From assembly GCA_023101725.1 (NCBI GenBank), contig JALJCO010008684.1:262501-326500 (forward strand): a DNA stretch of 64,000 bases, written 5' to 3'. Source of the DNA: Atherinomorus stipes. Its lineage: Eukaryota; Chordata; Actinopteri; Atheriniformes; Atherinidae. Under the pieces are notes generated by a model. It had not been told where the DNA came from. It made no database searches and saw nothing but the letters and a program-made list of their open reading frames with translations. Of this stretch, positions 15,801 to 62,935 are shown piece by piece. Numbering within the stretch: position 1 is the stretch's first letter; each line of letters opens with the position of its first letter. A program made the translations under genes and the position numbers.

Positions 15801-17646
15801 TTTCAATTTTGCCTTTTCACAATCACAAAAACACTGTAATCGAAGAAAAACAATTAATCTTGAAGTGAACAGACTGGTGGAGTTATAGGAAGCAAACTGC
15901 AGGGAGTATAGAACAGGAATGCATGTAGACTTAGTATTCAATTTTATTGCTATTATTATTTTGAATAATATTCTTATTTTACTCCTTTACTTGTTTCTAA
16001 TTTATTTTCGGTTTAATTTTTTAAAAAGTTATATTTCAAGTTGAGTTATGTGGTTCAATAAACACTTTTTATAAAATCAATGAATAATCGTGTATATTAA
16101 TCGTGATTTCAATATCAGTCAAAATAATCGTGATTATAATTTTTTCCATAATCGTCCAGCCCTAACATGTATCATAGTTTACTGTCTCACCCATCTGGTT
16201 GACTGTCCAGCTGATCACAAAACCCCTTGATACTGTCCCAGTCAGTCTCCTTGTTTAGAGGATTGGTGGCCTTGTCTGTGTGCAAGAAAAACATGTCATA
16301 CTAAAATGCTGGAAATGCTCTTTACCAGTGGTTCCCAACCTCTTTTTGGGAACAAACTACCAACAAGCTGTGGACCCCCTTTGCTGCTTTTTGAAACCAT
16401 GCTTTGTTTTACGATTTCATTTGCAAGGTCCTCGCCACATGATGCATTCTGGCCTGTCCTTTGATGAAATCATGATGTAACCAAACCAAAATACACCTCA
16501 ACTCATCTCTGTGTGGACTAGGTGAGCATCGATACAAAAAATCCACGGCTCTGTTTGGATTAATAGTTTAGGGTCACATTGTGATTTTTTTTCGATCCAA
16601 AAAAGACATTTTTATGCCTTTTTTTAAAAAAAAACGTGTCTTTCTCCACGACATGCTTACCATCAATTTCACACTGAACATAAAAACATAGTTCCAATTG
16701 CCAGATCTGAATGTTGGTGGAGGAGCTTTGATTTCAAGTATAGCTGAGGCAGCATATTGCAACAAGCAACTTCTCATAGTTTGCCTCAATAGCTTGAGTG
16801 AATGCAAGTGGGAAGCACTCAGTGGATCTGCACTCCACAACGCAGCCCATGCAGAGTAGTCAAACACAGATCCACTGAGTTTTCAAGACAGAGCTCATCT
16901 CAAAAAACAAGTTGTACACACCTGTATTGAACGGTTTGACATACAAAATTGTATACATAATTGTAATCACACTGGCTCTAAACAGTCAAAACTTTGAGGA
17001 CCCCTGGGGAGGGGGGAGACACCAGGTTGGAAACCTCTGCTCTGTATTTTTAGTAAGTAGATGAAGCAGTTGACATGAGAAGTTAAAGGCTTCGGATGTG
17101 TGATGCTTGACAGCAGCTGTGAAATCTAATGTCTTCTACTATACAGACAATAAACTCTGGTTTGAAGAGGACAAGTTGTGAAACGTGTGCGTTTACAGTC
17201 CCCCACGGTTCCAGGGGTTGGGTTTGCTTATGCTGAGCTGGTTTTACATGGTCTTCAAGGTAGCTCCTTGATTTAGTTAGCATTCAGCTTCGTGTTATTT
17301 AGTGTTTATAAGTCACGTTTGAGTTTGATCATAAATTTCAAACTGTCAACAATGGACAAAGAGCTTAAGTTAAAGCACAGCAAGGTTACACAGCGCGAGA
17401 CAATCAGTTTGTTCCTCATTACTGAATGCACTTTTGATTTGATGACATTTCTGACTCCTAGAAATCCGTTCCCTGTGGAAAAATGTGTTACTGACAACGG
17501 AAAATTCAGTAATAGTTTATATATAATTATCTCTCGGTCATTTTTCAGCAGTCGCCTCACTTCAAAACTTGATCTGGGAATGTGATATTCGATGACTTAC
17601 TGATGCGAGACTGCAGACTAGCCTCATCTGAAGGCGCCGCCGCCAT
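3894..17646 (-). CDS. gga1: GGA1, Golgi-localized gamma-ear ARF-binding clathrin adaptor
   Basis: Monomeric adaptor at the trans-Golgi network: it binds ARF-GTP, DxxLL cargo tails and clathrin. I placed 17 coding exons (minus order): 17646-17601, 16275-16191, 15559-15484, 15327-15229, 15057-14934, 14359-14259, 14010-13930, 13606-13469, 8416-8335, 8256-8146, 8009-7866, 7742-7699, 7546-7365, 7241-6961, 6795-6626, 4203-4093, 4004-3894. Phases agree and give 661 residues (human 639). VHS domain about 10-145 (CGKRFHGEVGKFRFLNELIK), GAT about 170-310 (DLRAANKLIKEMVQE; RPTLFRLASDTEDNDEAL), hinge about 311-530 (NLLDDELMSLG; LDLLGKTLLQQSLPPESQQ), gamma-ear about 531-661, ending VDQFPPPSTWGNL. The start is MAAAPSDEASLQSRI. 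GGA1 rather than GGA2/3 from hinge similarity and neighbours. Human Ser355, just before LLDDELM, is Asn353 here, and the human WNSF hinge motif is missing. Intron 8 (5 kb) and intron 15 (2.4 kb) are full of transposons. Confidence 0.93.
4555..5441. mobile_element. 887-bp long-inverted-repeat (foldback) DNA transposon, TTAA-type, non-autonomous
   Basis: The two halves are reverse complements over about 350 bp each (about 4555-4912 and 5085-5441), roughly 95% identical by eye, around a 170-bp centre. Both ends read TTTAAAGGAATAGTTCACC inward, flanked by TTTAAA/TTAA, as for piggyBac-like TTAA insertions. No transposase is encoded. ORFs from the two arms share the peptide start MGSVQNLLETTP, which is just the repeat translated twice. 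It sits in GGA1 intron 15. Confidence 0.85.
5910..6536. mobile_element. hAT-like MITE in GGA1 intron 15
   Basis: The left end TGGATGTTCGATATTG and right end ATTATCGGACATCGC are imperfect inverted repeats. The interior is rich in GATATC-type motifs (CCGATATTTTCCAATATCAG, then TCTGATATCGG), typical of fish hAT MITEs whose ends read GGGATGTCCGATA. Boundaries are approximate and I could not fix a clean target duplication. Confidence 0.55.
8662..9191. mobile_element. 530-bp hAT-like MITE in GGA1 intron 8
   Basis: The ends are CAGGGATGTCACGATC and (reverse complement) TAGGGATGTTGCGATT. It is flanked by GATGGAAC (8654-8661) and GATGCAAC (9192-9199), an 8-bp target duplication with one mismatch. The interior carries the phrase GAATCCACCAAAA, which recurs near 56.2 kb. 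Confidence 0.75.
10840..12975. repeat. 2.1-kb inverted-repeat composite in GGA1 intron 8
   Basis: The stretch 10842-11050 reappears reverse-complemented at about 12765-12965. Shared runs include GGATTTACATCATTTTGCA, TTATAAAATTTGGCAG and GGCCAAAAA. Inside is a second, smaller inverted pair (about 11130-11185 and 11480-11530, sharing CTGACAATTTTC and CATGACTTTTGTC-like sequence) and a hAT-like piece (about 11955-12765, CACGGTTATTG motifs, ending TTACATCCCTA). Arms are diverged, so this is an old element or several nested ones. No transposase was recognised. The remaining intron around it is AT-rich with no other signal. Confidence 0.6.
15767..16164. mobile_element. 398-bp hAT-like MITE in GGA1 intron 2
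   Basis: The inverted ends are TAGGGCTGGACAATTAATCG and TAGGGCTGGACGATTATGG. It is flanked by a perfect 8-bp duplication ACATGTAT (15759-15766 and 16165-16172). The interior is A/T-rich with repeated AATCGTGATT. It ends 26 bp from the donor of GGA1 coding exon 2 (16191). Confidence 0.9.
16326..17039. mobile_element. 714-bp hAT-like (Charlie-type end) element in GGA1 intron 1
   Basis: The ends are CAGTGGTTCCCAACCT and (reverse complement) CAGAGGTTTCCAACCTGG. It is flanked by CTCTTTAC and CTCTGTAT, a decayed 8-bp duplication. The inner ends read GTGGACCCCC and GGGGTCCTCAAAG, the usual arrangement in vertebrate hAT-Charlie non-autonomous copies. No transposase remains. Confidence 0.7.
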
Positions 17647-18502: not shown

Positions 18503-21500
18503 ATGGGATCCCTGAAAGCTCTCCAGGAGTGGTGTCGGATACAGTGTGAGAATTACAAAGATGTGGAAATAAGGGACATGTCAACGTCCTTTCGGGACGG
18601 CATGGCATTTTGTGCCATTATACATCGTTACAGACCAGAACTTATGTAAGTAACCCTAAGTATAACAATAAAGTTGTTTAAATTTTGTATTCAGTTACAG
18701 TAATCACTTGCATGATTAAACATTGATGGTATAGCTAATGCAATCTGAACTAATCTGTGAATTAATCTGGATGCCAGATTATTCTGAGGCATCTAAGAGG
18801 GACTGGTTTTTGTGGTTCATGTGAACGGATTTCTTTTCTTTTTTGACCATGCTTGCATTAGAATCTGTATTTTAACAACACACTAAATATGCTTTTTAAA
18901 GAAAAAGTATAATTGGTTAGATAACTTGACATGTTTAATTTTTAATCTCATATGATTTACAAGTGTTTGTGCGTGGCTTTAATCATTCTTAAAATAATTT
19001 CTTATAGTCAATATTAATGCTGTAGTGCGAAATACCACTGTAGTGTAATAAACTCAGTCTGACAAGCCATGCCTGTCATCACACCCTCACTATGCATTTT
19101 GCAGCTACACAGGGGCTACCCAAGATACCACAAAACACAATAACATGTGTTTGATTTATTACAAGGGACAAGGAAATGATGACTTGATATTGTTTTAGTT
19201 TAGATGAAAGGTGGAACTTTCCAGTGGCACTATTTGACGGTCTCAGTACCCTTTATATAAGAAGACCATCCTAAATTTCAGTTTTAAATCCTTTTCCTTT
19301 ATTATCTGGCTTGAAACACAGCTGCACAGTATATCATTTAAGTATCAATATTCCAATTAGCAAACGCCCAATAGTCAAATGACAGGGCATGTCATGTCAA
19401 GTAAAGCAAATCATTTGAAAACATGGTATAAGTTGTTTTTTTCTGTTGTTGTCACCACTTGAACCCATTACCAGGCTGCATCAATATGATTTTCTATTTT
19501 GATTTAAATCTGCATCACAAAACTCTATTTCAAGTGTAGTTGTTGTCAAACTTATTTTAGTTCAGGAGCCACATACAGTCAAATTTTATCTCCAGTGTGC
19601 CAGACCAGTAAAATAGTAGTATAATAACCTATAAATAATGAAAACTCCTATTTTTTTCCCCTTTGTTTTAGTGCAAAAAAAAAGTATATTGTCAAAATGT
19701 TTACCTATGATGGACTTACCTTTTAAGAAAACATTATGAACAAGCTAACTGGGAATTTCTTGAGCAAAAAAGTGCAGTTTCACCAACAGTTTATCATTAT
19801 CATGTGTAACATAACTTAGGGATCACAATGGATCTGGAAAATCACAAAACATTTAATCACAGGTATCTGGTGCAGTAAACTACAGTATTTCACATTATGA
19901 ACAGAGTAACTTGTCAAGACCTGGATGTTATCTTTAATGTTCATACCTGCATATTGCCACATCTGTTTTGTAAGCTCGACAGCTGAATGGACTTGTGTCA
20001 TAATACAAATTGAAGCCACTCTCTTTCATTGCATTGCTGTAGTTTTGATTTTAAGCACACAAAATTCTAGCATCAAAGGTAATCTCTCCTTTTAAAGAAA
20101 TCTATATTCTATTTTCCCACCCAGAAAATTCCTCCTGAAGTTTATAGTGATGTTATTTGTAAATCAAGCTGTACAAATCATTTAATGCTGAAATTGTATT
20201 ACAAAGCATTTTAAAGTATTTTTTTATTATTTTCTTTATTTCTGCCTTGGTTGAAAGGTTCCATTATTTGCAGTGATGATATATTACACATAAGTCTGAC
20301 CTCAGTGTGACCTATAGAGTGGATATTGCAAGCCCTGTCTGTGTAGCATAATGTAGCTCTCTTGGCAGAGCGTGTTGTTGACGCCATCAGGATTTCCTGC
20401 TAAAACATGTCAACGGCCCTCATTGTAGTAAATGCTTTGTGTTAACCATCTGTAGATGGTGTGTCATGTCGATGTCCTGGGTGACAAAGAAAATGTGGCA
20501 GGATGATTTCATATGGTAAACAACTTGCTCCTGAGTAAGTTGGACTGTGGATGAATCAGACAAACGTTTGCTTGAGCAGAAACTGAGTAGCCAGTGAAGT
20601 TAAAATATTTATATATATATATAAATCACTACAGTAAAGCTTAAGCCTTAAAACTCCAAGTCACTTTTGACTATTTTCTTTTGTTTTTTTATGTAAAAAT
20701 GCATGTAGAGCCTCAACCCTCCACATTAAGCACAGTCAGCATGCAGACATCATTTTTTCAGGACTGCCTCAGTTGAGAGTTAATGGGGCTAAAATGATTT
20801 AGAAATGAATCTATCAATAGATATGACCCCTTTTAAAAGCCAACTAAAAACCAAAACAGAATTTATTACTTTGTAGAAATAACACAGATCAACAAGGACC
20901 AAGCCTTTTCTCATCTGCATATCGTTCTGTCAACTTTTGGCTTTCAGGAGAAAAAATATTGGCATTGAAACAAACACGCAACAGAAACTATTTGCATGTT
21001 TACACTTTTTCCTCCTGGAATCTTTATGCTATTTATAGTTATTAAGCTTTACCTACTAACGTCACAAAATAAACTTCAACTAAGCTCATTTTTGGCTTAA
21101 TTCCAGATGGAGGACCATTCTTTTTTTTCTTTTCTGACACGCATAGAACTGTCTCGTCACTTTTTGATCTTTGGCTGCTCCTAATTGGACCTTACTGTCA
21201 ATTAAAGCTGTCTAATTGGTCAAAAGTTTGGCAAGAAGTGGCTTCATCATATTTTATGGGTTGAAAAAAACTAGGTCTCAGAAACAGAAGTGAGATTTTT
21301 TTCTCAGATATTTTTTACCACCACATTGTTACAAAATAATTAGGGCTGCCACGATAAGTCGATCGTGATTATGTTGACTATCGATATAGTCGGCGACTAA
21401 TTTCATAATCGACTAATTGTTTATTGTTTTTTAAACTTTGTTTTTTCTCCCAGAATTGCCACTGTACCTTATTCTGCTGTTCTGTCCTTGAAGTTTGGCG

Positions 21501-24500
21501 TGGTCGTAGCTATTGGGGTCAGCTTTTCTTTAATTGTATATTGACATAAACGTTTGGGCACATTTTCCCATTAGATTCAAAGAGAAAGTGTCCAGACTTT
21601 TGACTGATACTTTGAATATGCTACAGTTTTCGTATGATCTGATTAGTTGACGAATTGCCAAAATAATTGGTGACTAGTTGATTATCAAAATAATAATTTT
21701 TGGCAGCCCTAGAAATAATCATGCTATCATGGATCACTCATTGTGGATTTACAGTATAGAGTCTGATTGATTACCACATTTTGTGGCTGGATGGACAGTG
21801 ACCCGCGTGGACATACGTCTGATAAATTGTGATCTATGGAAGTTTTCCAAAGTTACACATTACCGCTGCTGAGAAATTGTCATCTATGTTAGCACTAGAA
21901 GTTGGGGCTGCTGGTGATATATCAGAGTTATATGGGGTGAATCACAAGAGCGGTCAAATGTTTAATGTGCCATTTTTGCGCCTTGTTGTTTCAGTTTGTG
22001 TCCAAGCATGCCCCACTGTTCAACTTTCTGTCTAGTTGCACTTGACCGGCCAAACTCACTCTGATCCAGACAGACAGCTCATCAGGCTAATCTGCAGCTG
22101 AGACCTCCGCCTGTCAAACTGGATTTAGCTCCAACGCAGAGCCGGGCCATTGTAGTGCAGCCCTGTACTCCGCAGCCAATGTACTCCTCATCAAAATACA
22201 TGGCAGTGATGCAGAGGAGCGATGTTAGCACAGCAAGTGGCCTCATCAGAATTCCTTTAGCCTCTGTCAACTTTCACTCCGCTTGCTAAAGAGGGAGTAG
22301 TTGTGGTGGACTTGTGGAACAGAAAACTGCAACCTACACTGTATTTAGATAAAAATGTGAATACTCACACTTCTCTGTTCCCTCCCTGCATAGAAAATGT
22401 ATAAATCTATCTATAAAATGCGTTTGCGATCAAACAAGCTCCTCTTCTAAAAAGCATTTTACGCATAAAGGGTTGTTAATTCCAGTTCTTTCAAGTCTGA
22501 CTGAAACCAATTTAGTAGATGTACTGGTTCACCCTGGCTTTTATCACGTGGATTTTAAACAGCTGACACACATATACTCTGAGACGCATCGTTTCTCAGC
22601 GGTACTCTTTCCCAAAATAAACCTGGAGTGAGTATCCTGGATTAGGTTCACAGTTCCAGTCACACACTTCATCATATTTTGTCAGTGAAGGTCGGCTCCG
22701 TTTGAGAATCTGAGCCTCCACCGACAGTTCTGGGAGTATTTTATTTGAGGTTCATCATTTCAGCATGCTACATTGGTGACGTTGTCATGGTGTGGACTTA
22801 GTTTGACAGGATCTTGATATTAGAGTTGCTGCTCGCTGCGTTTGTGGCCATGGGAACTAGATTAGAGAGAACAGAGGTCACTTTGTGTAGCTCCAACACG
22901 GAGCCCATTCACAGGATTTTGCCTTCTTGAAAGCTCTGCATGGTTGCCACACGCCCTCATCAAGGTTACAGTGTTGTTTTTTTTCCCCCAGCCTAGTGTT
23001 GTCCACTCCTCAGCACATATTTAGTTGCTCATACAACCACACTTTCATCCCACAGCTCCTCAGATATTTTCCAGTTTTACTGCAGGAAGTTTACTAGCGG
23101 GAGGCTGGTTTTAGTTCCTCACTCCAGGCATTTCAGAGCTGAGCCTTGTAATTATCAGCCCAACTCCCGTTTGGCCCTGCTGCTTCTTTTCTTTTGTTGT
23201 TACTATTTTCTTACATCAGACAACGCTCAGTTGTACAGTATGGTAATTGTCTGTAGGTGGGAAACATTACAGCTTTGCATCCTCTTAAGTGAGATTATGT
23301 CAGGAAACATGTTCAAAGTTAAACTGTTTAACTATACTGGTTACCTGCAGATGTGGCCTTACCTCACATGTTTTTATTTATTTTTTTCTCTTTTCAGAGA
23401 CTTTGACTCACTTTCTAAGGAAAATGTCTACGAGAACAACCGACTGGTGAGTTACAAATCACATCACCAGCTGAATGTTTTGAATCCATGTTGCTGTCAT
23501 AGTCTGGAAAGGTTTGCTCTTAATGGGGGCGGGGGATGACCTCATTTATATCTCTCACTCAGCTGTTGGCACCTGTTACATCTGTGACCTTATCAGTGTA
23601 TGCAGTCATGATGTGACGTTGCATTTGACAGCCTGTGCAACAAAGTGTTGTGTAACTCTGGAGTCTGACGAGGCCCCTGAATGGGAAGGAGAAAGTCAGA
23701 ATACTCAGAGTCAGGAAAAAAGAAAATCTTGACACGGGGCTGTGAAGAGAGCATTAGGGGAGTGTTTCATGGGCAGATGTGTTGAATTTGTGATCGTTTG
23801 GCCCCTGATCTTCCACGGTTGACAGAAGTCTAAGAAGTTGAAAATCTCACTTTCAGTTTGAGCCCAGCTTTTCTTGTGTTTTTTTCCTTGCCGTTTATTT
23901 TATAATAGAGCTCTCAACAGAAACCAGGCAGCTTATTGTCTGTAAATATTTTTTTCTCTTTCTACCAAACATATGTTAAACAGGTCTTATCTGGAGTGTA
24001 TTTAAATATGATTATCAAGCCTAATTCCTTAGTTTTATAAGGCTTGTAATGTATTCATGATCTTCAGCATGCTGTTTTCAGTTTTTAAATCCTGTTCTAA
24101 TAAATAAAGTTGATTATCTAGTTGCAAACCAATGTGGTCCTACACTTTTACCTTCTAGTCCAGCTCTGCTAAGGTTCCTGTGTGTGGGAATACAGCCAGT
24201 CTATACTACGCTGTAGAGGTGTGGATTGATCCAGGTGCATGCATGATTGGCTTTTCTGCAGCTAAAATGATTTGAGCTATACTCAGCAGCAGAGGGACCC
24301 GTGAGGCCCTCATGAACTGGTGACGATGAAAAAATTGGCGTCACGAAGGCCTCACTGCTCAGCTGGGCACATGTTCGCAATCCTTCCTACATTACTGTTG
24401 AAGACTTCAGTTTACAGCTAAATTTGTTCTTTTATGCACATTTCTGCTAAATTGTAAAGGTTGCAAATGAAATTTCAATATTTCAACATCAAAATATGTT

Positions 24501-27500
24501 TAGACTGAGCTCATCAGGTTTTTATACATTTAAACATTTAGATTTAAATACAGTAAAGTTATTCATTTTGATTAGACATTAGAAAATGTATGTTCTAGTC
24601 CAGGGTCACAAACTCCAGTCCTCTGGCTACTGTCCTTCAGGTTTTAGATGTTTCTCTGCTGTAACACACCTGACTCAAATTAATGGGTGATTAAGAGACT
24701 TGTGCAACTCATGACAGCCTGGAGAACCATTTCATTTGAAAAAGGTGTGTTGAAGCAGGGAAACTTCCAAAATCTGCAGGTAGCACCGTACCAAAGAGTG
24801 TAAAGAAAACAAAATGGACGTAGTATCCAGTTACATCTGCAGAGCTAAAAGTGAAGCCAGTTAGGCGTTACCAACCGTCACCATTTTGCCATCTCATGTG
24901 TGTCGTCACTCCCAGAAAATACTAAAATGGGCAAAGACTGGGCTGCTCTGAGCCGGGCAAATGATTGACAGCCAAGCTAAATGCTAACCAAGCTAATCCG
25001 AAGTGAACAGGAATGAACCAAGATAGACAGTTTAAAGGTAAGACACGCTCAGACTTGCTGTTAACCAGCTAAAAACCACAGTTGCGCAACTGTGATACAG
25101 GCTGAGGCGTTCTTGGGAGCAAGCAAGGAGCTAACTGTTAGCCTCCATGGCTAAAATCAGCAACCAGTCTGTCTCCTGTTAATCAAAAGGACAAACCCCT
25201 AATTATGTGTAATTTCAAGATTGGAGAGAATCACTGTGTTGAAAACAGTATTTTGTGAGTAGTACTATGCGTTGAATTTTGACTAAGGTGTGGCTACCCT
25301 TTGCTTATGTGCAGCTTTTGTTGGCAGGGCTATTGCAGGGTCGCATAGCTGCCAGGTTGGTTATGTAATGTTATCCATGTACTAATTTCTTAAGTGAATC
25401 TTATTGTTTTTTTTCCTTAAAGGGACAAATATTGTAATGATCGGGGATAATTCTGGGATTGTGAATCTGCTGGTTGGTCAGCTAGCTTTGAGCACATTTT
25501 CATTTGAACTCAAGGAAACCCTCAGATTAGAAGTTGGGTTAAAAATAAAATACCACAATGGGTTGTAACATCTAAAATAGTCCACATTAGTAACTCAAAT
25601 TGTGCTGAGTCAAAATTTGATCTTTGTACAAGAAAGGTTATCTGATTATTGTGTGTGCAGATTATGATTTTATTTAAATTTTTTTTTGTATGCATGTAAG
25701 ATCATTGCTGTGTGGTTCTCAGCTACATACTGGCTTATTTTCTTGTTTATTAATGTTTTCTGTTTGTTCTTTGTTTCATCGTAGGCATTTGAAGTGGCAG
25801 AGACGCAGCTGGGGATTCCAGCCCTGCTGGACCCAGAAGACATGGTGTCTATGAAAGTTCCTGACCGGCTTAGCATTATCACATACGTGTCCCAGTATTA
25901 CAATTTTTTTCAACAACAAGTCACAAGGTGTGTTAACTTAATACACCAGGATTTCATATGAGATTAAGAAGCTTATGGGTGCTGACTCTCTTTACCTTTT
26001 GTTATTCAGCAAACCCCCCTGTATGAAGAGGCTGAGTTCAGTGAGTCATAATGAGCTAGCTCAGAAAAGGCCTCCGACTCCTTTAGAAGACAAAGTGGTT
26101 GAAACTGAGGTAAGTAGAGCAACATGTACTTATACATGTTTTTTTATTCCCCTGAGGCCTGGTGGACTTTAGGTTACACTAAACTTGATAAGCTCTGCAT
26201 GTACAGGAGCTGCATGGTCGCATGTTGTTGATATTTTCAGGATATGATGGACTTTTTAAGGAAAAGCGCAGTAAAAGCTTTTGAACTGTGGTCTTAGTCT
26301 GAGTATGTCGTTGTACATTAAAGTTTTCCATGATAAACCAGTTACTGCATGAGCTATTTTAGGGAATTAAGTGCATAAACCTGCACAAGCCTGCCTTAAT
26401 GAATACAAAGAAAAATCCCCACCTGTGGGATTTTTAACGGCTCCATCCTTGTGTGGGCATTGTGTTGCTCAGCAGGGGAAAAGTAAAGCCGTAAGAAGAA
26501 CAAGTCTCCAAAGATAGCCTCTGTATCCTGTCTCTCTTTTCTCTCGCATGCCTTCAACCTCTTTCCTCCGTCCCGAACTGGCATCCTCCTCATCACCCCT
26601 TCCCTCACCCCTACCTCCCCCCTCTTCAGATGGAAATTCATTCCACTCCCTCCTCTTCCTGTTCTTCATCCTCACATCTGGTCCCCCCTCCACTCTCTGG
26701 TCCTGAGCCTAGGCAGTAGTGTGGGGGTGGGGGGTGGGGTTAGCAGGTGAAAGGAAAAACTGTTAGGTCAGTCTTTTTTAATCATCGCTTGTACATAATA
26801 AACTAACAGTGATATTATTCTAATACTTTGTGTGCCAAGTGTTGCTACTTCTGAGCCCTTTATATAACCCGTAACACAACTTTGAACACTTTATATCAAT
26901 CATGCCTGTAGACATCACAGCAAAAAAATACACCAGAATACCAGAGCCACTAACCGCAGCTGTTTGTTGTTTTATTAATTAATATTATGACACTTTTTTT
27001 GTATTAATCAAATTTTTTTTAAAGATGAAAATGAAACTTTAATCCATATGAATCAATAAGCTGTAGCTGTTAGAAGCTAAACAGAATGAACAATCCACTT
27101 CCTCAAATCCTGACTCCGTGTATGATCTCCCCCTCCCCCATTACTCTCCATCTTGCCCCTTCCCCTGATGTCTCCTGCCTGTCCCCGCCCTGTGAACAAC
27201 CTCCCGGTCGCTTGCACTAGCCAATCCAGCCACCGCAGACAGGTGCGGAGGCGGCGGCGGTGGTCAACCTTCGCTCTCTGAGCAGCACCTGCGCTGCCTG
27301 CCAGAAACACGTCCATCTGGTGCAGAGGTTTCTGGTGGACGGCAAGCTCTACCATCGCAACTGTTTCAGGTGACAACAGCATCACTAATGACTCATGTTA
27401 CCCGTTAGACTTTAATAACTTGATGTCAGCTGGTTACAGGATGTGAGGTATAATACCACTAGGGCTGTGCGATATACTGATATAATATCGCGATATGATA

Positions 27501-30500
27501 TTTACACATATTGTTATATTGCAGTATTAGTTGTGCAAATTTTTTTGCTGTATTTTTGTAATGACCCAGCTGCACCTCCACTGACTACAGGGTCACCTGA
27601 TTATTTAATAAGGGTGGGAAAAAATATCGATACACTGTAATATCGTGATATTTTAATATACCTACTATATCTATATTTAGAAACATGGTATCGATCTATT
27701 TTGCTAATGAAATCTCGCTAAATATCGTTTTGTTACGAAATCTCATGAGATTTCACAAAATACGAAGATTTTGTAACAGAACGATGAAATCACGCGGTAT
27801 TTCATGAAATCTCATGAGATTTTGTAACAAAACGATATCTAGCAAGATTTCATTAGTAAAATAGATTATACTTTTAAATGTAGATATGAAATCAGCATAT
27901 AAAAATATCGCAATATTGCAGTGTATATTCAGTGTATCAATATTTTTTTCCCCACCGCTATTATTCAAACTGTCTGGAAGACAATCCTCCCCCCTCCCTC
28001 CCCCTCCCTTTTACAAAGATATCATAAAAAACCAGCCAACTATCTTTAATTACTTTGATTTAACAAACATTTCCAACCAGTTCTGTGTCAGTTCCATCAC
28101 TACAGTGGAGCGATACCTTTACGCTAAACATGTTTCAATACTAAAAAACAGATGTTTGATATGAAATTAAACCTTTAGACAAATTAGGGTAAAAATACAA
28201 TATATATTGTATATTGTCATCTAAAATGAATAAATATATCGTGATATGATATTTGGTCCATATCACCCAGCCCTAAATACTACTGAAAACATTTGTTTTG
28301 GTCCAGGATGGATTTTGTGATTTTGTCAGAGAATTGCAGTATTGAGCATTTACTGTAAAATTTGGCTGAAACAAACAGAAAAACAAAAACAAGAAACTGT
28401 AGATTTAAGACATGAATTATGAATCAGGGTTCTTGCGGGGTCATAAAGAGTCTAAAAATGTCTAAAATTCTGAACTTTAAATATAAGGCCTTAAAAAGGG
28501 CCATTTTTTCATCCAATGTCTTAAATTTGATCTACAAGTCTTAATTTTTTTTTTCATTTTATTCATTCCCTAAGAGCATTGGCCATGTAGAATTGGCTGA
28601 ATGAAATATCAGAAGTCGATTCTGTCCGTCTTTCTGAAAAGTTCAGATAGCTACGTGGGATATTTTCAATTTCTTTTTTTTTTTTTTTTTTTTATTAAAA
28701 TACAATTAAATGCATTTTATCTTGAGTACCGCTTGGGTTAGCAATATTAGTGTCTGTGTCGATTATTTGATTCAGTCATCCTCTTTGTGGCTATTATTGT
28801 TATGTGATTAATCAAGATTGATTAATTACAAACCCTTTTTTTTTAACGAGTTCCACCCCTATTTTAAATTTCTGGCATTATTTGAATGTTTCTAATTGTG
28901 CATCATGTTGCTCTTAAACTTGATTTATAAAGGTCTTAAAAGGTCTTTAAATAATTTAACTTGCTGAACCCTGATGAATATGCATAAGCGAGAATATTGA
29001 TCTGATTTTCTTTCTGTGTTGTTGTTTCAGGTGTACAGAGTGTCGCAGCACTTTGCTTCCTGGATCCTACAAAGGAAGCGAGTCTGGGGCATTGGTCTGT
29101 ACGCATCATCTTACAAGGCATGCCTCAGCCAATCAGAACGGTCGGCCAGATCTTAGTAAGAGACCAGCGGCAGTTTATCCTGCCCGGGTTGGTCGCAGCA
29201 CAGTTCATCACACCGGACCCTCTGAGAGGGATCAGGGAAAGACTCCTCCTCCTGTAGGTCAAACAGATCCTGAAATCCCAACCAGCGACTCTGTCTCAGC
29301 CGCTCCTGGAATAACAATCAAAGCAGACTTTCCTGATAAAACCAAGGAGCTGGACAGCAGCAGAGAAACAGAGGAGAAATCACCTCCTTCCTCTCCTCCC
29401 AACCCCTTTGATGAAAGTGATGAAGAGAACGTAGAAGAAGAGGAAGAAGAAAAGGAAACGGAAGCGCCATCTCATTGCACGTCTAATGGAGAGCTCCCTT
29501 CTGCATCTCACGTTGAAGCATCCATTCGGCCGGTACCTGCCCCCAGAAAAGTGTCTGAACCCACGGCTCCACCACGCCCCGCCCCTCGAGCTCGGCTGCC
29601 CCCCACGGCAAACGGCCTCGCAGTCGGTATGTGTCTGTTTCAGGGTACGAATGACTTTAAAAGACGTTTGCTCATGGTGAATCTTTTTTTATTGAAACCA
29701 CAGATGAAAAGCTGAAGCCTCCAACTCCTCCCAAACCTCGAGAACGATCCCAGTCTCCTGCCAGGTACCTGGTTCTCTGTTACACACCTGTTCCCTTCTC
29801 TGTTACCGCTTCATACACCTTAATCATGTAACCAGTCTTTGTTGGAATTCTGAAAACCATTGTGTTGCGTCGCATACCGTCAGTTGCCCCTTTGTGTTTT
29901 GTGCATTTTGTTTTCCTCTGTGTGACCCCTCCATCACTATCTGTATCTCACTGTTCAGTGGAGCCCATAAACCTAAAGACCCACCTTGGCTTGCCCTGGT
30001 CCAATCAGAACCCAAGAAGAAGAAAGCTCCTCCCCCACCCCCACCTGGACTGGCAACGCCTCCAAAAGCAGGCTCTATGTCTTCTCTCCAAGGGGACGGC
30101 TCCAGACCCAGCACACCCCCGCAGCCAGCCAACCCGTTTGAGGATGACGATGATGATGAAAATAGCGAGGTAAATGAAGAAGAAGGGAGCGAAGGGGCGG
30201 TTCCAGCCACGGTGGCTGCTAGTCATCCATGGTACAACATCACTCGAGCGGCCGAAGCAGCAGCTGGAACAGCAGGTGCGGAAACTACAGGAAGCTCATC
30301 CCGCTCTGCCAGTCCTGGAAGTGCTAAGAGCAAGAAAAGACCAGCACCTCGTGCTCCACAGCCCCCTGCTGGGAAACAAGGTTGGTTTCAGACAGCAAAC
30401 ATTGGCCGGTCAGACATTTACACTTAACCATCACCAGATAATACATTCATTGTTCTACATTGGTAAAATCTGTTATTTTCTGTGGTCAGCTGCTTACTGG

Positions 30501-38028: not shown

Positions 38029-40146
38029 TCAGAAGAAACTGTTTTCTGTTCCGCATTCTTCTTTTGCATCATGCTTATCGCTGCTAGCTTGGTCTAGAAT
38101 CTTCAGTTCTTGAAGTTTCTGTTGGAGCAAAGATGGCACAAGTTTAAGCATGTTTTGTTCCAGAGCGAGTGAAGAATCTGCATCAAATCTGAAATTAGCA
38201 GAATTTATGAAGCAAAATGTGTTGTTTACTGAGCTGTCTGGTTACCTGTGCTATCTCAGTGTTGATGATGTTGATGTATTTCCTCTCCTGACCCAGTGCC
38301 GCCATATCTGCTAGAAATTGTCTTCTTTCCTCTATTTCATTTAGAACTACATGAACAAAAAGACTATATTCAGAGCTGGAAGGTTTCGTGCTGCACAGAT
38401 TCTAACTTTTATACCTCCTCTGTCTCTGTGAACTTTACCTTCCTGATAGCGGTCCACCTCCTTTGACACTTCTGAGTCGGGACATGCTGGAGTTTTTTGA
38501 GGCAATACAATGGTGGAATCTTTTCCTGTTGCCATGATTTCCTGTAACCTCTTCTTCTCTTTCTCCAAGTCTCCTGAGAACACGTGTACAGGTGTGCACA
38601 CAGTTTGATGAATTACTACAGTAAAGATGTGACTTCAGATTAACAAAGGCTGACAGTTTAAGGTACGTACGTGAAGGACCGGGGCAGAACTTCTCCCTCT
38701 CGTAGCTGCTCCCAGACCGACAAGATTCAGCACTACGTTTGTGAGACTTGAAGGGTGGATGTTTCTGAATAGATTGACTTGAGTGAGAGGACTTAGCAGG
38801 ATTAGATGTCTGAGGAAAAGCTGAGGGGGGAAAGTCACACAAAATGTTGAGAAAATACTGTGTTGTTTCAACAGTAAAAAAAAAAAAATGCTGGCAACTG
38901 GAACAAAAATATAAGAAAAGCATCTTCTATCTCATAAACATACTTAAACACAATAATGAAATATCTGTTGTGTATGAAAAATACCATCAATCTGTCCCAC
39001 TTACTCTTTTGGCCTCTGTTTGTCTGTTTTTTGTGGAGATTTGTGAGCCGTGATTCCTCTTTCATCACTTAAAAAAAGAAAAAAAATCTTATGAAAAACA
39101 CTGTAGAAGCACATACAACAAATGAATGAATGAAGATATACATAAAATAAACTTTCCCCACATACATTTTCGAGACCAAAATGACCACTTTGAAAATATG
39201 GCATATTTATTTTATCAGTTTGTATCAGGATTTAAAAAAAAACCATTTAATATGTATAGATCTTTGAAAAAAAAGGTAGAGATTAGACTTATTTAAAGGC
39301 AAAGCAGAACTAGATAAATAAAGGTCTGACAAGTTTATTACATTACTGGGCAGACTAATCTAAAGTGAGCATACATCAGTAATGCAGCTTCATCTCTGGC
39401 TGTCTAAATAACAAATAGAAGAATTAAATCAGCAAATGTTCTGTGAGACGGTGGCTGCCTAAGGGTGGTTTCAGTTTAAAATCTCTAAACTGCAACCAAG
39501 AGAAGAAATGCTTACATTTGTATTGGACTAAAGCAACATTTTTAGTATATGATGGAGGAACCTGGATTTAACTGAAGCGAGATCAGAATGAAACTTCATT
39601 TCTGAAACTTCAAGCCTCCTCCATGTTCCACCCTCCACTGTCCCCAAAGCTTGGTAAAAAAAAAAAAAAAAAAATCCTTGAACACAAGGAAAACTGATCA
39701 TCTTCCACATTCTTTCCTCCAGTTACCTCCAGTGTCCAGGGTCAACTTAATGTCTAATATGAGTGGTGTTTCAACTCACCTCTCAGTAGGGCTGAATGAT
39801 ATGGACAAAATTTCATATCTCGATATTCATGCCAGCCATCTCAATATCGATACGATACGATATGACTACGGGTTCGTTGAAAACCAAGCACTTTGGTGGA
39901 AAGTGCAGTTTTGTTTGTGACTTCCAGAGCTTTATATGCAGGACAAGCGCAGGGGAAATCTTTATCTTTTATATAGTTGCTTTAGCGATATTAATATCTT
40001 GAATGTCCATATCTCGATATAGATACGATAACGATATATCTTTCAGCCCTACCTCTCAGCATGTCCTGCGTCTCCTTGCTGGACTGAATGGATCTGGGAT
40101 GATTCCACAGCCCTCCGCTGCTTGTATTCTGTAAGGAGGTCTCCAT
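38029..40146 (-). CDS. C22orf23 orthologue, UPF0193 (EVG1) family protein
   Basis: Small protein of unestablished biochemical role. Six coding exons (minus order): 40146-40053, 39067-39005, 38820-38671, 38573-38439, 38346-38246, 38118-38029. Phases agree and give 210 residues (human C22orf23 about 217). Recognised blocks: ETQDMLRVMMKEESRLTNLHKK (human version LLRVMMKESKLTNFQQR), RDLEKEKKRLQEIMATGKD (RDLEKEKQRLQNIFATGKD), EIEERRQFLADMAALGQE (EIQERKEFLADMEALGQG), then KLQELKILDQ. The protein is charged, with likely helical segments at the C-terminus and no membrane segment. The start codon follows an acceptor-like TTTGCAG, so an upstream non-coding exon is likely. A MITE sits exactly at the donor of the first coding exon (see findings). 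A minus ATTAAA (37913-37908) is the likely poly(A) signal. Human C22orf23 also neighbours MICALL1. Confidence 0.88.
39787..40051. mobile_element. 265-bp hAT-like MITE inserted at a C22orf23 splice donor
   Basis: The ends are TAGGGCTGAATGATATGG and (reverse complement) TAGGGCTGAAAGATATATCG. It is flanked by a perfect 8-bp duplication CCTCTCAG (39779-39786 and 40052-40059). On the minus strand the duplicated bases CTGAGAGG are the last seven bases of the coding exon plus the first base of the intron. Confidence 0.93.
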
Positions 40147-40740: not shown

Positions 40741-41069
40741 ACGTGTTACGTTAAGTTGCTGTTGTCATTTTTATTTCTATTTATTTCTATGTTTTTATCA
40801 GTATTTGTTTATTTACTTTTGTGCAAATTACTATATATTTAGTGTAAAATGCTTCATTTACTAAAAACTCAAGTACCTAATAGAGGAGGGGACGTTTGTC
40901 ATTAAGATTTGCATAATAACTTAGTCTACATGTTTAAAATGCATTCCTATTTTCCCAAACTGCACCAGAAATGTCCATTTCAATAGCAGTAACACAAGAC
41001 CAGCCATGTTATTAAGACTTTACAAATTGAACTGATTGTTTTTGTAGCTATAGAGAAATGACTGCAGAT

Positions 41070-41862
41070 AATCACAGAGCTTCAGTCTATACAACTAAAA
41101 CCCACCAACCAGGCCAGAGATCTGGGTGTAGTGATGGACTCAGACCTAAACTTTGAAAAAAACATTAAGGCGATCACTAAATCAGCGTACTATGACCCGA
41201 AGAACATCTCAAGGATAAAAGATCTGATGTCTCAGCAAAATCTGGGAAACGTAGTCCATGCATTCATTAGGAGTTGGTTTGATTATTCTAACAGCTGTCT
41301 AACTGATCTACCTAAAAATAAGTTAGACAGCTGCAGCTCATTCAGAAGTTTGTTGCCCGAGTTCCCACTAAGACCAGAAGACGGACCACATCAAACCAGT
41401 TCTGAGGTTTTTACAGTGGCTGCCTGTCTATCAGAGGATAAACTGGTCTATAAAGCTCTGAACGGTTTAGGACCAAACTACATAAGTGACCTCCTGATCC
41501 AGTATGAACCCACCAGACTCCTCAGATCATCTGGATCGGGACTTTTATCATTTCCCAGAACCAGACATGGAGAAGCTGCATTCAGCTTCTATGATCCACA
41601 TGTCTGGAGCCTCAGATCAGCTGACACACTCAGTTTATTTAAATCCAGGTGAAGGACCCACCTGTTCTCAGCTGCATTTAATAAGGTTTTTTTCAGGAGT
41701 CCATATCTACACAGCCTTTTTTCCCTGCTTTTGTCAAACTTTTTTTTGCATCTTTTCTTCTGCACCCCGTTGTAATGCTTTTAATGTTTGATGTAAAGCA
41801 CTTTGAATTGTTGCGTACATGAAATGTGCTATAGACCTACAAATAATCTTACCTTGCCTATG
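41070..41862 (+). mobile_element. L2-clade (Maui-type) LINE remnant, 3' end of ORF2 and 3' UTR
   Basis: The open stretch 41131-41652 matches the end of fish L2 reverse-transcriptase ORF2: GVVMDSDLNFEKNIKAITKS, LVYKALNGLGPNYISDLL, PRTRHGEAAFSFYDPHVW, RSADTLSLFKSR. Internal deletions and changes (a lost block around the second third) show it is dead. The 3' UTR follows, with TGTAAAGCACTTTGAATTG and GAAATGTGCTATA, as in fish L2. Confidence 0.85.
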
Positions 41863-44870: not shown

Positions 44871-47800
44871 ATGGCTGTTACCCAGGCTGTTCTCCCCTCC
44901 TTCAGCTCCTTCTCCAGCCTCTCTCACTCCACCAACAACATGAAGGTAAGCATTATTTTCACTTCAGACTTTTGATTCCTTTACTATGATGGAAAAACTA
45001 ACAAAACAAACAAACTATTTCAAAACATAAAGTTTATTTTGTAATATTAGAATTTTTCCCCAAATATTTACACAAAATGTTAACTAATTGCATAACTTGA
45101 AATGTATTTGTCATATGTTGATTTTGCATTGTAACACTTATATGTTAATTATTTCAAACTGTGATGATCACATCTAAACTGGTTTTTACTGGTTCCAACA
45201 GGTCAAGAAAGGTTAGAAGTCATATCTGAAATATTTTGCTTTTTTACAATAATGAAATATTTTACTGGTGAAGGATGCACTTTACAGTTTTGATTAAATC
45301 TTGTGCGTGTTACTGATAATTAAGTGCTCTCCTACTTTACTGGTCTGGACAGAAGTCTTAACCCTTTCAGGCATAATGTCCACTGCAGTGGGCACCTATT
45401 TATAAGCTGTCTGTTAAGGCGAGACACGACAGGCAAATAGGGTAAAAAATTTAACTAACTGGTATCACCATGAAACTTCCTGGTTTATTCCTCACATTAG
45501 GGTTATCATTTTTTGTATTGCAAGTTTTCTGAAATTTGATGTTTAAATATGCAAATTAGGTGTTATTTGGCCAAAAATGGACTAATTTGCATACAATTCT
45601 AGGGAAAAAATCTAAACACAGGATTAAGCCAGGTTAAAATTTTCTTTAGAATTTTGTTCACATATTAAAGTCAAAAGTTTTTACTGAGGGGATTTTTGAT
45701 ATCTATAGTTATCATTTTACAATTTAGAATATACTGTCAACAACCAGAAAAAACTATTTTTTGGGATATTTTTGGGATGAAATGTTCTATAAATCAGGCT
45801 GTGAATGAGATATCAAAAAATCCTTCTGTAAAAACTTTAAGAATACAGTCAGGAGCAAAACTTGAAAGTTTGGTTTCAGTAAGTGCTCCTGAAGTGGAGA
45901 TTCTTATTACCTGGAATAAGAGGAAAAAACTCGTTTTGAGAAAACAGCCTTTAAAGTTTTGGGTTGTAAAAGTCTCCACATTTTTGTCCTGTAACAATAT
46001 TGACAGACATCAGATCCAATCAGATTCATAAGCTGGAAATATCCAGTTTGGTTGAGATGACATCATTCAGGAAAAAATGACGTTTCCAACGTCACGAGAC
46101 ATGACAGGGTTCAGACGAGCACCATGGTGCTGCGCTCTGTTTAAAAACACCAACTTTAGCTGCAGTATGAGCCGATTTGGGTGCATCAGACAAAGTATAA
46201 TGAAATAAACTCCTAAAATGTTTATTTTTGACGTTTTTTTTTACACTAGTCTGAAAGAAAACATGTTGTAGGAGAGAAAGATACGAAAACCTCAAAATTG
46301 ACCAAGTGATGAAAAAACAGGGTTTTTACCTGTAGTGCCTCCCCTTAAAGCTGTTATAGTGTATGAATGCATGGAGATGATACGGTTGCAAATTAGTCAC
46401 TTCAGAGGATATTAGTGAGTCATCCAACTCACTGCCACTAACTGAAGAATAAATTAATATATCAAAAAAAAAAAAATCTAATATGTACGCATACATTCCA
46501 GTTACCAAATTTTCATTAGTGATGAGCAAGAAAAGAAAAAAATCAACCATATTTCTATAGAATAGATAAATATATTATGACAATAAATAAGAAAAAATGG
46601 ATTAGAAATAATAAAAGCTCACTGTACATGTCTGTAGAAGCAAGATATTGTATATATGGACATTGTGGCAATGGTTTTTTTTAAATTCATGCATTAGAAG
46701 GCTAAAGTAATTCTACATGTAGTTATTTTTCTGAATATTTAACTTTAAAAGGATAGATTTGCACTTAATCTAATTATGAAATCTTATTTGCTTATTTGGA
46801 CCATGAAAATTTTTTTGAGATTTTCTGGCCTTCATGTTTTAAAATGTGAGTAAAGACTGATAAACTTCCTTTCTGTTTCAAAAGCAACTTAAGATTAAAC
46901 TGAAAAAAATGAGGCTTCAGCATGTCTGTGATAAAAAAAAAAAGTTGTTTATTCGCTGGTTATGTTTATTTGACCACTTTGAAACATAAATGGAGCTACT
47001 GTATACAGAGCAACACTTGTTTTTCTTATCTTATTTTATTTTCATTTTATTTTTATTGCTGGGTATTTTGTATGTGCAGCACTTTGGAGACATGTTCTGA
47101 CTTAAATTTTCTTTATAAATAAAGTGGACTGAATAAAGATCTTTGATTTAGAAAACACTCAGTTTGGCTTAATTTTAATATAGATTGCTTTTGTTCTGAT
47201 GTTTCAGCTTAACTTTAGAATATCATTTTTTATTATCATTATTAAGTTAGTAGATTATTTAAAGGATGTGTATTTACATTTTTCTTTTTTTTTTTTTTAC
47301 CAGAACAACTAAGGATTTTTCATGCCAAACTTGAAAGCTTGTGACCGTTCCCCTTTTTATGGTCCTCACTCTCCAATGTTTTCCATCTAGGTGTGGAAGC
47401 CTGACGATGCATCTCCCCCTCTAGACTCCCCAAGCAACAAACTGTCCCCAAGTAGCTCTGAGCCGGTGCAGGCCTGCCAGCAAGTGACAGAGGAGCTCCT
47501 GGAGGATGAGAGTCAAACATCCTGGGACATTGAGTTCCTGCTGTCTGAATGGAGCAATTCTTCCCCTGACCTCAACCCCTCTCTGGACAGCCAACAACTT
47601 GCCCAGTCCGACCCAAACACGGCATACCAAGAGGTGAGCAACTTCAAGGACCAAACAGGGCAGGAGAGTCTGCATATGAACAGTGGTGGCCTCATGATTG
47701 AGCTCCTGACCCCTTCAGAGACCACAACAGCCCAACCAGAGCTCTACCAGCAGAGTTACAATAACGACCAACCAGGTCAGGGGTTATTTTCCAGTGTGCA

Positions 47801-48506
47801 TAATGTTAATCAGCTTGACTTCCCTCAAGGAGGAAATATGGAGAGGCACAATAGAGGAAGCTTTAATAAGGTCACATCATGGGACTTCAACCCCTACTAC
47901 CCCCAGCAGCAAGCCTCCATGGTGGCGATCCCCAACAGCAGGTTCTTCCCTCCGCAAGCTGTGACCCCTGACCCTCGACACTACGGCTACATGCCCCACT
48001 TTAACCCCAACACCAGCCTTTTCTGTGAATACTCTCCCAGTCAGGCTTCTGTTCATTTGCCCCATCACCAACAGCCCATGCTGGTCAGACCACAGCTGCC
48101 CCCTGGTGGGGTGGAGGGGAAACGTGGCAGGAGACCTACGGGGAAAAAAAGGCCTGCCATTCACAGCTGCGAATACCCCGGCTGCAGCAAAACCTACACC
48201 AAGAGTTCCCACCTCAAGGCTCACCTCCGCACACACACAGGTAAGACCACATAATAAATTAAGCATGAAATAATAATTGAATAAAATTCTTCAAAGAAAT
48301 TTCTTAATGATCATCTGCTTTATCCGACAGGAGAAAAACCTTACCACTGCTCATGGGAAGGTTGCAGCTGGAAATTTGCCCGCTCAGATGAACTGACGCG
48401 TCACTACCGCAAGCACACAGGTCAAAAACCCTACGAGTGTCTGCTGTGTCGTAGGGCCTTTTCCCGTTCAGATCACCTGGCTCTGCACATGAAAAGACAC
48501 ACCTGA
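44871..48506 (+). CDS. klf17: Kruppel-like transcription factor of the KLF1/2/4/17 group, probably Klf17 (Biklf)
   Basis: Sequence-specific nuclear transcription factor binding GC/CACCC boxes. Coding exons are 44871-44945, 47391-48240 and 48331-48506, with matching phases, giving 366 residues. The N-terminus [17 protein letters not shown] has the LPSFSTFA-type start shared by KLF1, KLF2, KLF4 and KLF17, followed by an acidic activation segment ([12 protein letters not shown]) and a Pro/Gln/Asn-rich middle. A basic stretch [12 protein letters not shown] precedes three C2H2 fingers: C285/C290/H303/H307, C315/C320/H333/H337, and C345/C348/H361/H365, with linkers TGEKPYH and TGQKPYE; the protein ends one residue after the last His. 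The finger order and spacing are canonical for KLFs. Klf17 is preferred over Klf2/Klf4 because the body is short, but klf1-type assignment is possible. Intron 1 (2.4 kb) holds an old repeat; intron 2 is 90 bp. Confidence 0.85.
45358..46350. repeat. Old interspersed repeat in klf17 intron 1
   Basis: The segment opens with AACCCTTTCAGGCATAATG, contains AT-rich text with GCAAATTAGGTGTTATTTGG / GACTAATTTGCATAC, and closes near GACATGACAGGGTT. It looks like a fish non-autonomous DNA element, but the ends do not pair cleanly. The flanking intron shows only A/T runs. Confidence 0.35.
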
Positions 48507-61799: not shown

Positions 61800-62935
61800 C
61801 TGCCAAATTTAGATTTTTATACGTTATAACATAACATAATGCTTTTATTGTAAAACTTTACACGTATCACATTATAACATAATGCTTTTATTATAAAACA
61901 TGAATGTGAAATGTAATAATGTGATAAGTTTTACATTTTTACAATGAAATATCACATCATCACAGGACATGTTTCACATTTTTACAATAAAAGTCTCACG
62001 TTATAACTTCACAATAAACTGTCATGTTGTAACGTGATACATGTGCGTCTTCACAATAAACTACCACGTTATAAGGACACACGTTTCACGTTTTTACAAT
62101 AAAAGGTTTCATGTTTTTATAATAAGCTATGATGTTATAACGTCATATGTATACAGTACATTTTCACAATAAACTATCATGTGATAACGGGATATATTTT
62201 ACGTTTTTACAATGAAAGGTTTCATGTTTTTACAATAAACTATTGTGTTATAACGTGATGCGTTTTTACAATAAACTATGATGTTAGAATGTGACACGTG
62301 TACGTTTTACAATAAACTATAATGTTATAACATGATACGTTTCCCGTTTTTACAATGAACTATCATGTTATAACGTGATACGTGTGCGTTTTCACAAGAA
62401 ACTATCAAATTATAACGGGATACGTTTCACGTTTTTACAATCAAAGGTTTCACATTTTGACAAACTATCAAGTTATAATGTGATACGTGTATGTTTTTAC
62501 AATAAACTATCATGACCATGATACGTTTCACTTTTTTCCAATAAACTATCATGTTATAACATGATACGTGTACGTTTTCACAATAAACTGTCATGTTATA
62601 ATGGGATGCATTTCACGTTTTGACAATAAACTATCATGTTATAACATAATGCGTGTACGTTTTCACAATAAACTATCATGTTATAACAGATGCATTTCAA
62701 GTTTTTATAATAAAAGGTTTCACGTTTTTACATTAAACACAGCCACTGTTGTATCATGTTATAACGTGATACATTTTATGTTTTTAAAATGAACTATCAC
62801 GTTATAACATAAGGTCCCAATTTTTCATTATTTCACGATTTGAAGACAAAACTATCATGTTATAATGTGGTATGTTTCACTTTTCTTTTCTTTTTTTTTT
62901 AAAGAACCATCATGTTATAACATGATAAGGTGCCA
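61800..62935. repeat. 1.1-kb degenerate tandem repeat (minisatellite) with alternating unit types
   Basis: More than 20 units of about 36-66 bp, each with TATCATGTTATAAC...GATACGT...TTTTACAATAAAC. Two unit types alternate: one with GTGATACGTGTACGTTTTC, the other with GATACGTTTCACGTTTTTAC, the latter often with an extra AAAGGTTTCATGTTTTTAC block. Units differ from each other by roughly 10-25%. Confidence 0.9.

Follow-up and report, generated by a model that had tools for sequence, protein, structure and literature searches.

Introns born from MITEs are known in tunicates. In maize, Ds1 reportedly acts as an intron, and Ds is said to be spliced from exon sequences and to have made an intron de novo, in the wording of the titles of Dennis 1988, Wessler 1991 and Giroux 1994. 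In introners, a DNA-transposon-like insertion takes its splice sites from the target-site duplication and from the element, and the introners of Aureococcus add 12 bp, or four residues, of which the element contributes 4 bp and the duplication 8 bp (both according to excerpts of PMC9860276). In the [D1,2] stwintrons of fungi, as outlined in an excerpt of PMC12403724, the insertion interrupts a resident donor after its first base. Finally, MITE amplification has been linked with alternative splicing in a plant, mulberry (PMC6593561); the title and the start of the abstract mention no donor shared between duplication and element.

Here, we analyzed a 265-bp MITE that straddles the boundary between exon 1 and intron 1 of a fish C22orf23/EVG1 gene (UPF0193). 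The gene lies in a 64-kb stretch of DNA, referred to below as the window, from which all coordinates are taken. Like maize Ds and Ds1, the MITE is a hAT element with 8-bp duplications. Compared by eye, its end TAGGGCTGAAA is one base apart from the published Ac/Ds end, C/TAGGGATGAAA, as the latter appears in an excerpt of PMC3260210, with agreement at 10 of 11 bases for one end and 9 of 11 for the opposite one; the MITE does not carry the C/TAGGGATGAAA end that defines the Ac/Ds group. Maize Ds was described in plant genes, whereas the fish MITE straddles a resident splice donor. As in introners, both splice sites are at the edges of the element (GTAGGG and TTCAG), as known here from sequence, and 12 nt would be added in both systems, reached as 4 + 8 in the excerpted description of the Aureococcus introners and as 5 + 8 − 1 in the MITE. 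In contrast to introners, no new intron position is needed at C22orf23. With the [D1,2] stwintron, as that structure is outlined, the MITE shares an insertion between donor bases 1 and 2. However, the inner intron of a stwintron splits the outer donor and its removal rejoins G and T, whereas the duplication of the MITE supplies two separate donors. A stwintron was rejected on this geometry: removal of the inner intron would leave CCCTACTGAGAG ahead of an intact far donor.

Among the matches listed in literature searches, titles and abstract starts yielded no fish or vertebrate case of such an insertion geometry, which is no proof of absence, and a literature search with the MITE end sequence gave, among the matches listed, no title on this element. 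Going by titles and excerpts, hAT element splicing, as in maize Ds, and duplication-borne splice sites, as in introners, are already known. The variant at C22orf23, as read from the sequence, consists of an insertion spanning a donor that a vertebrate gene already had, and it appears to leave two donors with the same exon end.

Insertion site and host gene

The MITE, with ends TAGGGCTGAA...TTCAGCCCTA, occupies positions 39787..40051 (265 bp, minus strand), as delimited by its repeats and by alignment of its copies. It is flanked on the minus strand by two identical copies (8/8) of the octamer CTGAGAGG, the near copy at 40052..40059 and the far copy at 39779..39786. The minus-strand reading across both junctions is ...GACATGCTGAGAG|GTAGGGCTGAA...TTCAGCCCTACTGAGAG|GTGAGTTG. 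The last base of the 8-bp target is the first base of intron 1, and the original donor is intact on the far side. This far donor, GAG|GTGAGT, is resident and ancestral and is located at 39774..39782 on the minus strand, with the exon end at 39780. On the near side, the duplication copied the exon end CTGAGAG plus the donor G, and the first base of the element, T, completes the GT. The near donor, GAG|GTAGGG, is located at 40047..40055 on the minus strand, with the exon end at 40053; its G, which is intron base +1, is the final base of the near copy, and its TAGGG comes from the transposon end.

An earlier note on this DNA had claimed that the exon has identical last bases and an identical phase at both donors, and this is seen directly in the sequence. 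Use of the far donor adds 273 nt to the message, and translation meets an in-frame TAA after 20 added codons (39991..39993, minus strand, position counted on the sequence). The coordinates and counts given in the earlier note, including the 8-bp copies, the 265 bp, the 273 nt, the 20 codons followed by TAA and a protein of 210 residues, were reproduced base for base. The octamer CTGAGAGG occurs at five places on the two strands of the 64-kb window, these two included, which is approximately the chance expectation. The feature that exceeds chance is the place of the octamer at both edges of a repeated element, not its rarity.

The C22orf23/EVG1 gene is on the minus strand and comprises six coding exons. 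If the near donor is used, exon 1 runs from its ATG to CTGAGAG and spans 40053..40146, based on the spliced protein, Pfam and alignment. The edges of the downstream exons were taken from the longest enumerated splice chain: exon 2 at 39005..39067 (acceptor TTTTTTTAAG|TGATGAAA), exon 3 at 38671..38820, exon 4 at 38439..38573, exon 5 at 38246..38346 and exon 6 at 38029..38118, the last extending through the stop codon, whose end was counted on the sequence. Splicing from the near donor, 40053 to 39067, gives 210 residues, the longest product among the enumerated chains, which also include chains yielding 209, 207 and 206 residues. The spliced protein matched UPF0193 (PF05250) in Pfam over residues 6-199, with an E value of 2e-52 and 178.5 bits against a cut-off of 23.3 bits. 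Its nearest relative, the best among 120 listed of 147, was EVG1 of the rainbowfish Melanotaenia boesemani, at 80% identity. The isoform difference in Melanotaenia (X1 versus X2) is at the end of exon 2 and is unrelated to the exon 1 donors. The protein had no match among solved structures at an E value of 0.001. A UPF0193 protein of Sarotherodon galilaeus (P0008) carries the source name 'tribbles-like protein', which is probably a misannotation.

To this protein we aligned 12 of the relatives listed, from fish to shark, for a total of 13 sequences. The residues across the CTGAGAG|TGATG junction were free of gaps in 12 of 12 relatives. Based on this gap-free alignment, the junction that the near donor would restore is read as the ancestral one, an argument that is independent of an empty site. 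The alignment also bears on whether exon 1 is bypassed, with transcription from another first exon and neither donor mattering. Exon 1 encodes G12, W14 and N15, which are invariant in all 13 sequences, and we consider such a bypass very improbable. A protein search of the fish's own 1.18-Gb assembly, in which all 15 candidates were scored, returned six matches, one per exon. All six are on the contig of the window, and a duplicate gene or a second haplotype in the assembly was rejected.

Several other features were observed in the window. Just upstream of the gene, at 41062-41649 (+), a 196-aa open frame had no Pfam match; we take it to resemble the last part of the reverse transcriptase of a fish LINE. 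A frame with a LIM-like stretch at 28978-29712 (+), also without a Pfam match, presumably resembles MICALL1, which we assume would fit the neighborhood of human C22orf23. The 287-aa open frame at 47391-48251 (+) matched a C2H2 zinc finger towards its end, but at 21.7 bits this was below the cut-off of 25.2. A long inverted repeat with 361-bp arms at 90.6% identity was found at 4555-5441, and a dense, self-similar, tandem-like block at 61911-62812.

The MITE family in its own genome

A first look at the fish's own genome gave 1020 candidates for the element, of which 40 were scored, the window copy included. All 40 matched end to end at 97-100% identity and were full length, at 263-265 bp. The copy statistics that follow are based on these best-scored 40 of 1020 candidates, a sample that favors close relatives of the window copy. 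The other 39 copies were fetched with their flanks, and perfect 8-bp duplications were present in 36, which bears out the claim of the earlier note that the insertion is a MITE with a true target-site duplication. The duplications of the other copies differ in sequence, except within L021/L023 and L028/L038, two pairs whose members share flanks. The consensus was derived from 37 of the 39 copies, with a single member of either pair retained.

Because other copies of the family carry 8-bp duplications of different sequence, the repeat at C22orf23 is best read as a target duplication that is not older than the element. The same duplications speak against the possibility, which the earlier note had named as damaging to its reading, that the two 8-bp copies predate the insertion. 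A chance 8-bp repeat was likewise rejected, as other family copies show such repeats to be the element's own duplications. An assembly artefact or a chimeric join at the element might be suspected of repetitive DNA such as this; however, the duplication is perfect, as in 36 of the 39 other copies, and the six exons match on one contig only, so we regard an artefact as extremely improbable.

Among the 36 perfect duplications, T was present at position 2 in 28 and A at position 7 in 27, a pattern resembling the target preference of hAT elements. The C22orf23 duplication has the T at position 2 but a G at position 7, which was found in 4 of 36. In addition to its 8-bp duplication, the element shares with hAT-type MITEs its short TAGGG-ended inverted repeats, uniform short length and many copies. 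The terminal inverted repeats have 17-nt arms at 94% identity, one base per arm belonging to the duplication. All 37 copies agree at the first 12 bases of the consensus, whose ends read TAGGG. At 4 of 265 sites, the window copy departs from this consensus of 37 other copies, and those 37 copies differ from it by 1.3% on average. The insertion looks young, its youth being read from a favorable sample of copies, the best-scored 40 of 1020.

Among the 39 other copies, none was recognized as lying in a host coding exon or acting as an intron when open frames in 200-bp flanks were inspected by eye, a weak test on a biased sample. One of these copies, L022, whose duplication also ends in AGG, was by eye without a convincing adjoining coding exon. 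Two MITE copies, L035 and L046, are apparently inside what we take, by eye, to be Tc1-like transposase frames. Separately, three more stretches with TAGGGCTG...CAGCCCTA ends, which we paired ourselves, are present in the same 64 kb, at 15767-16164, 21341-21711 and 27460-28275. Their 8-bp flanks match exactly or differ by a single base: ACATGTAT on both sides, AAAATAAT/GAAATAAT and AATACCAC/AATACTAC, respectively. Over its final 40 bp, the MITE matches the end of the 27460-28275 stretch at 87.5%.

Strength and accessibility of the two donors

Donors were evaluated using a scoring matrix and a U1 5′ end that are vertebrate values and may not fit this fish. On this matrix, the near donor scored 7.8 bits and the far donor 11.5 bits, a gap of 3.65 bits; the duplexes with the U1 5′ end were −9.8 and −10.8 kcal/mol, respectively. 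On the same values, the other four donors of the gene scored 6.8, 4.9, 7.5 and 7.3 bits, and −7.5, −2.9, −6.8 and −8.0 kcal/mol. When the 60 GT sites between 39080 and 40199 were ranked by bits, the far donor was first and the near donor second. The earlier note had described the near donor as the weaker consensus. This description is right with respect to the far donor but is incomplete, as the near donor outscores all four other donors of the gene. By these scores, the transposon-made donor would be the weaker of the pair, yet would compare well with the other donors of its gene, and the question would be one of competition.

The earlier note had also stated that the element landed exactly on the donor. 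The 8-bp target does end at intron base 1, but the luck that this wording implies was overstated. We modeled insertions with a target ending at −3 to +7, a total of ten registers. Registers +1 to +7, 7 of 10, keep a GT at the old exon end, and the three from −3 to −1 lose it. The modeled score of the near donor was 7.8 bits at +1, 6.3, 3.5 and 5.8 bits at +2, +3 and +4, and 11.5 bits at +5 to +7; only 4 of the 10 registers give a near donor at least as strong as the one here. Under this model, when an insertion spans a donor, survival of a near donor is predicted to be common rather than a rare coincidence.

The inserted stretch, folded alone, was more stable than all of 200 shuffles (z −3.3). 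The near GTAGGG is predicted to be part of a terminal stem, base-paired with CCCTAC in the opposite terminal repeat. The mean unpaired probabilities in the predicted fold were 0.27 for the near donor, 0.44 for the far donor and 0.43 for the donor of the rejoined empty site (CTGAGAGGTGAGTTG). In predicted folds of shorter transcripts, the near donor was unpaired at 0.32-0.49 before the far repeat was complete and at 0.24-0.27 after, with 0.24-0.25 immediately upon completion. The predicted fold leans to the far donor, and the effect on accessibility would be modest.

If the far GTGAGT were used almost exclusively, the 273 extra nt and the early stop would leave the gene effectively off on this haplotype, and the intact reading frame would merely reflect the youth of the insertion. 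Indeed, the far donor is 3.65 bits stronger, nearer to the acceptor and less paired in the predicted fold, and the element is little diverged. However, total silence is not expected, since the near donor scores above the other four donors of the gene, and the remainder of the gene reads open. We consider a near-null allele a possible but improbable outcome.

Splice routes and output of the gene

A third splice route would remove the MITE as an intron of its own, before or after removal of intron 1 via the far donor. The other end of the element reads TTCAG|CCCTA, and a candidate CAG acceptor is present in its 3′ terminal repeat at 39792..39794 (minus strand). With the near donor, this acceptor would define a 261-nt intron from GTAGGG to TTCAG|CCCTA, 40052-39792. 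The in-frame remainder, the 12-nt CCCTACTGAGAG at 39780..39791 on the minus strand, would be gained by the mRNA, and the protein, at 214 aa, would gain ALLR between R31 and V32. The sequence contains both splice sites, and the reading frame is kept in the product. The 12 of 16 pyrimidines upstream of the candidate acceptor compare with 16, 13, 11, 11 and 11 of 16 at the gene's own acceptors, placing it within their range of 11-16, and TTCAG is invariant in 37 of 37 copies. The Aureococcus introners make a similar 12-bp, four-residue addition, as described in the excerpt of PMC9860276. Against this route, the acceptor is inside the predicted terminal stem, with a mean unpaired probability of 0.08, and ALLR would be placed at a junction where none of the 12 aligned relatives has a gap. 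On balance, we find removal of the MITE as its own intron quite unlikely.

The same arrangement can be considered for the family. Both MITE ends read TAGGGCTGAA, and a duplication ending in G provides a donor, G|TAGGG, and an opposite acceptor, CAG|CCCTA. By arithmetic, excision by splicing would add 5 + 8 − 1 = 12 nt, with 5 contributed by the element and 8 by the duplication, less the donor G, an addition that is in frame in either orientation. On the strand read, the duplication ends in G in 11 of the 39 sampled copies; it begins with C, the equivalent on the other strand, also in 11 of 39. After the shared-flank copies were left out, a hand count gave 10 of 37 for each. That this fish hAT MITE family is introner-capable, and that this made the allele at C22orf23, where a donor was hit, a tolerated or dose-lowering one, is a tentative and rather doubtful suggestion.

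The earlier note had further claimed that the full-length protein is obtained only via the near donor. This holds among the three splice routes examined, of which only the two that use the near donor give a full-length protein. Our preferred reading, with a probability of roughly 0.55, is that the two donors compete, the near donor accounting for all full-length protein and the far donor diverting much of the transcript pool into messages with an early stop, such that output is reduced, not abolished. Specifically, the spliceosome would face two competing donors at the end of exon 1, and splicing from the near one would produce the ancestral mRNA. The far donor, being stronger, nearer to the acceptor and outside the MITE stem, would take its large share, and these transcripts would probably be degraded by nonsense-mediated decay. 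The net effect of the young insertion would most likely be to lower the output of an otherwise intact gene. Other weightings of the two donors are conceivable, from almost exclusive use of the far donor to dominance of the near donor via exon definition.

Under competition between the donors, normal protein probably depends on a splice signal half made by a transposon. That the insertion 'saved the gene' is best treated as a reasonable hypothesis rather than a finding, and the 'tunable' splicing suggested in the earlier note is conjectural as well. The locus represents a clean natural example of how a target-site duplication could, through two donors with the same exon end, lessen the effect of a transposon landing on a splice site. 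If the ends of the family act as splice sites, a vertebrate genome with approximately 1000 candidate copies would allow a direct test of intron gain driven by transposons, in an animal from which RNA is easily obtained.
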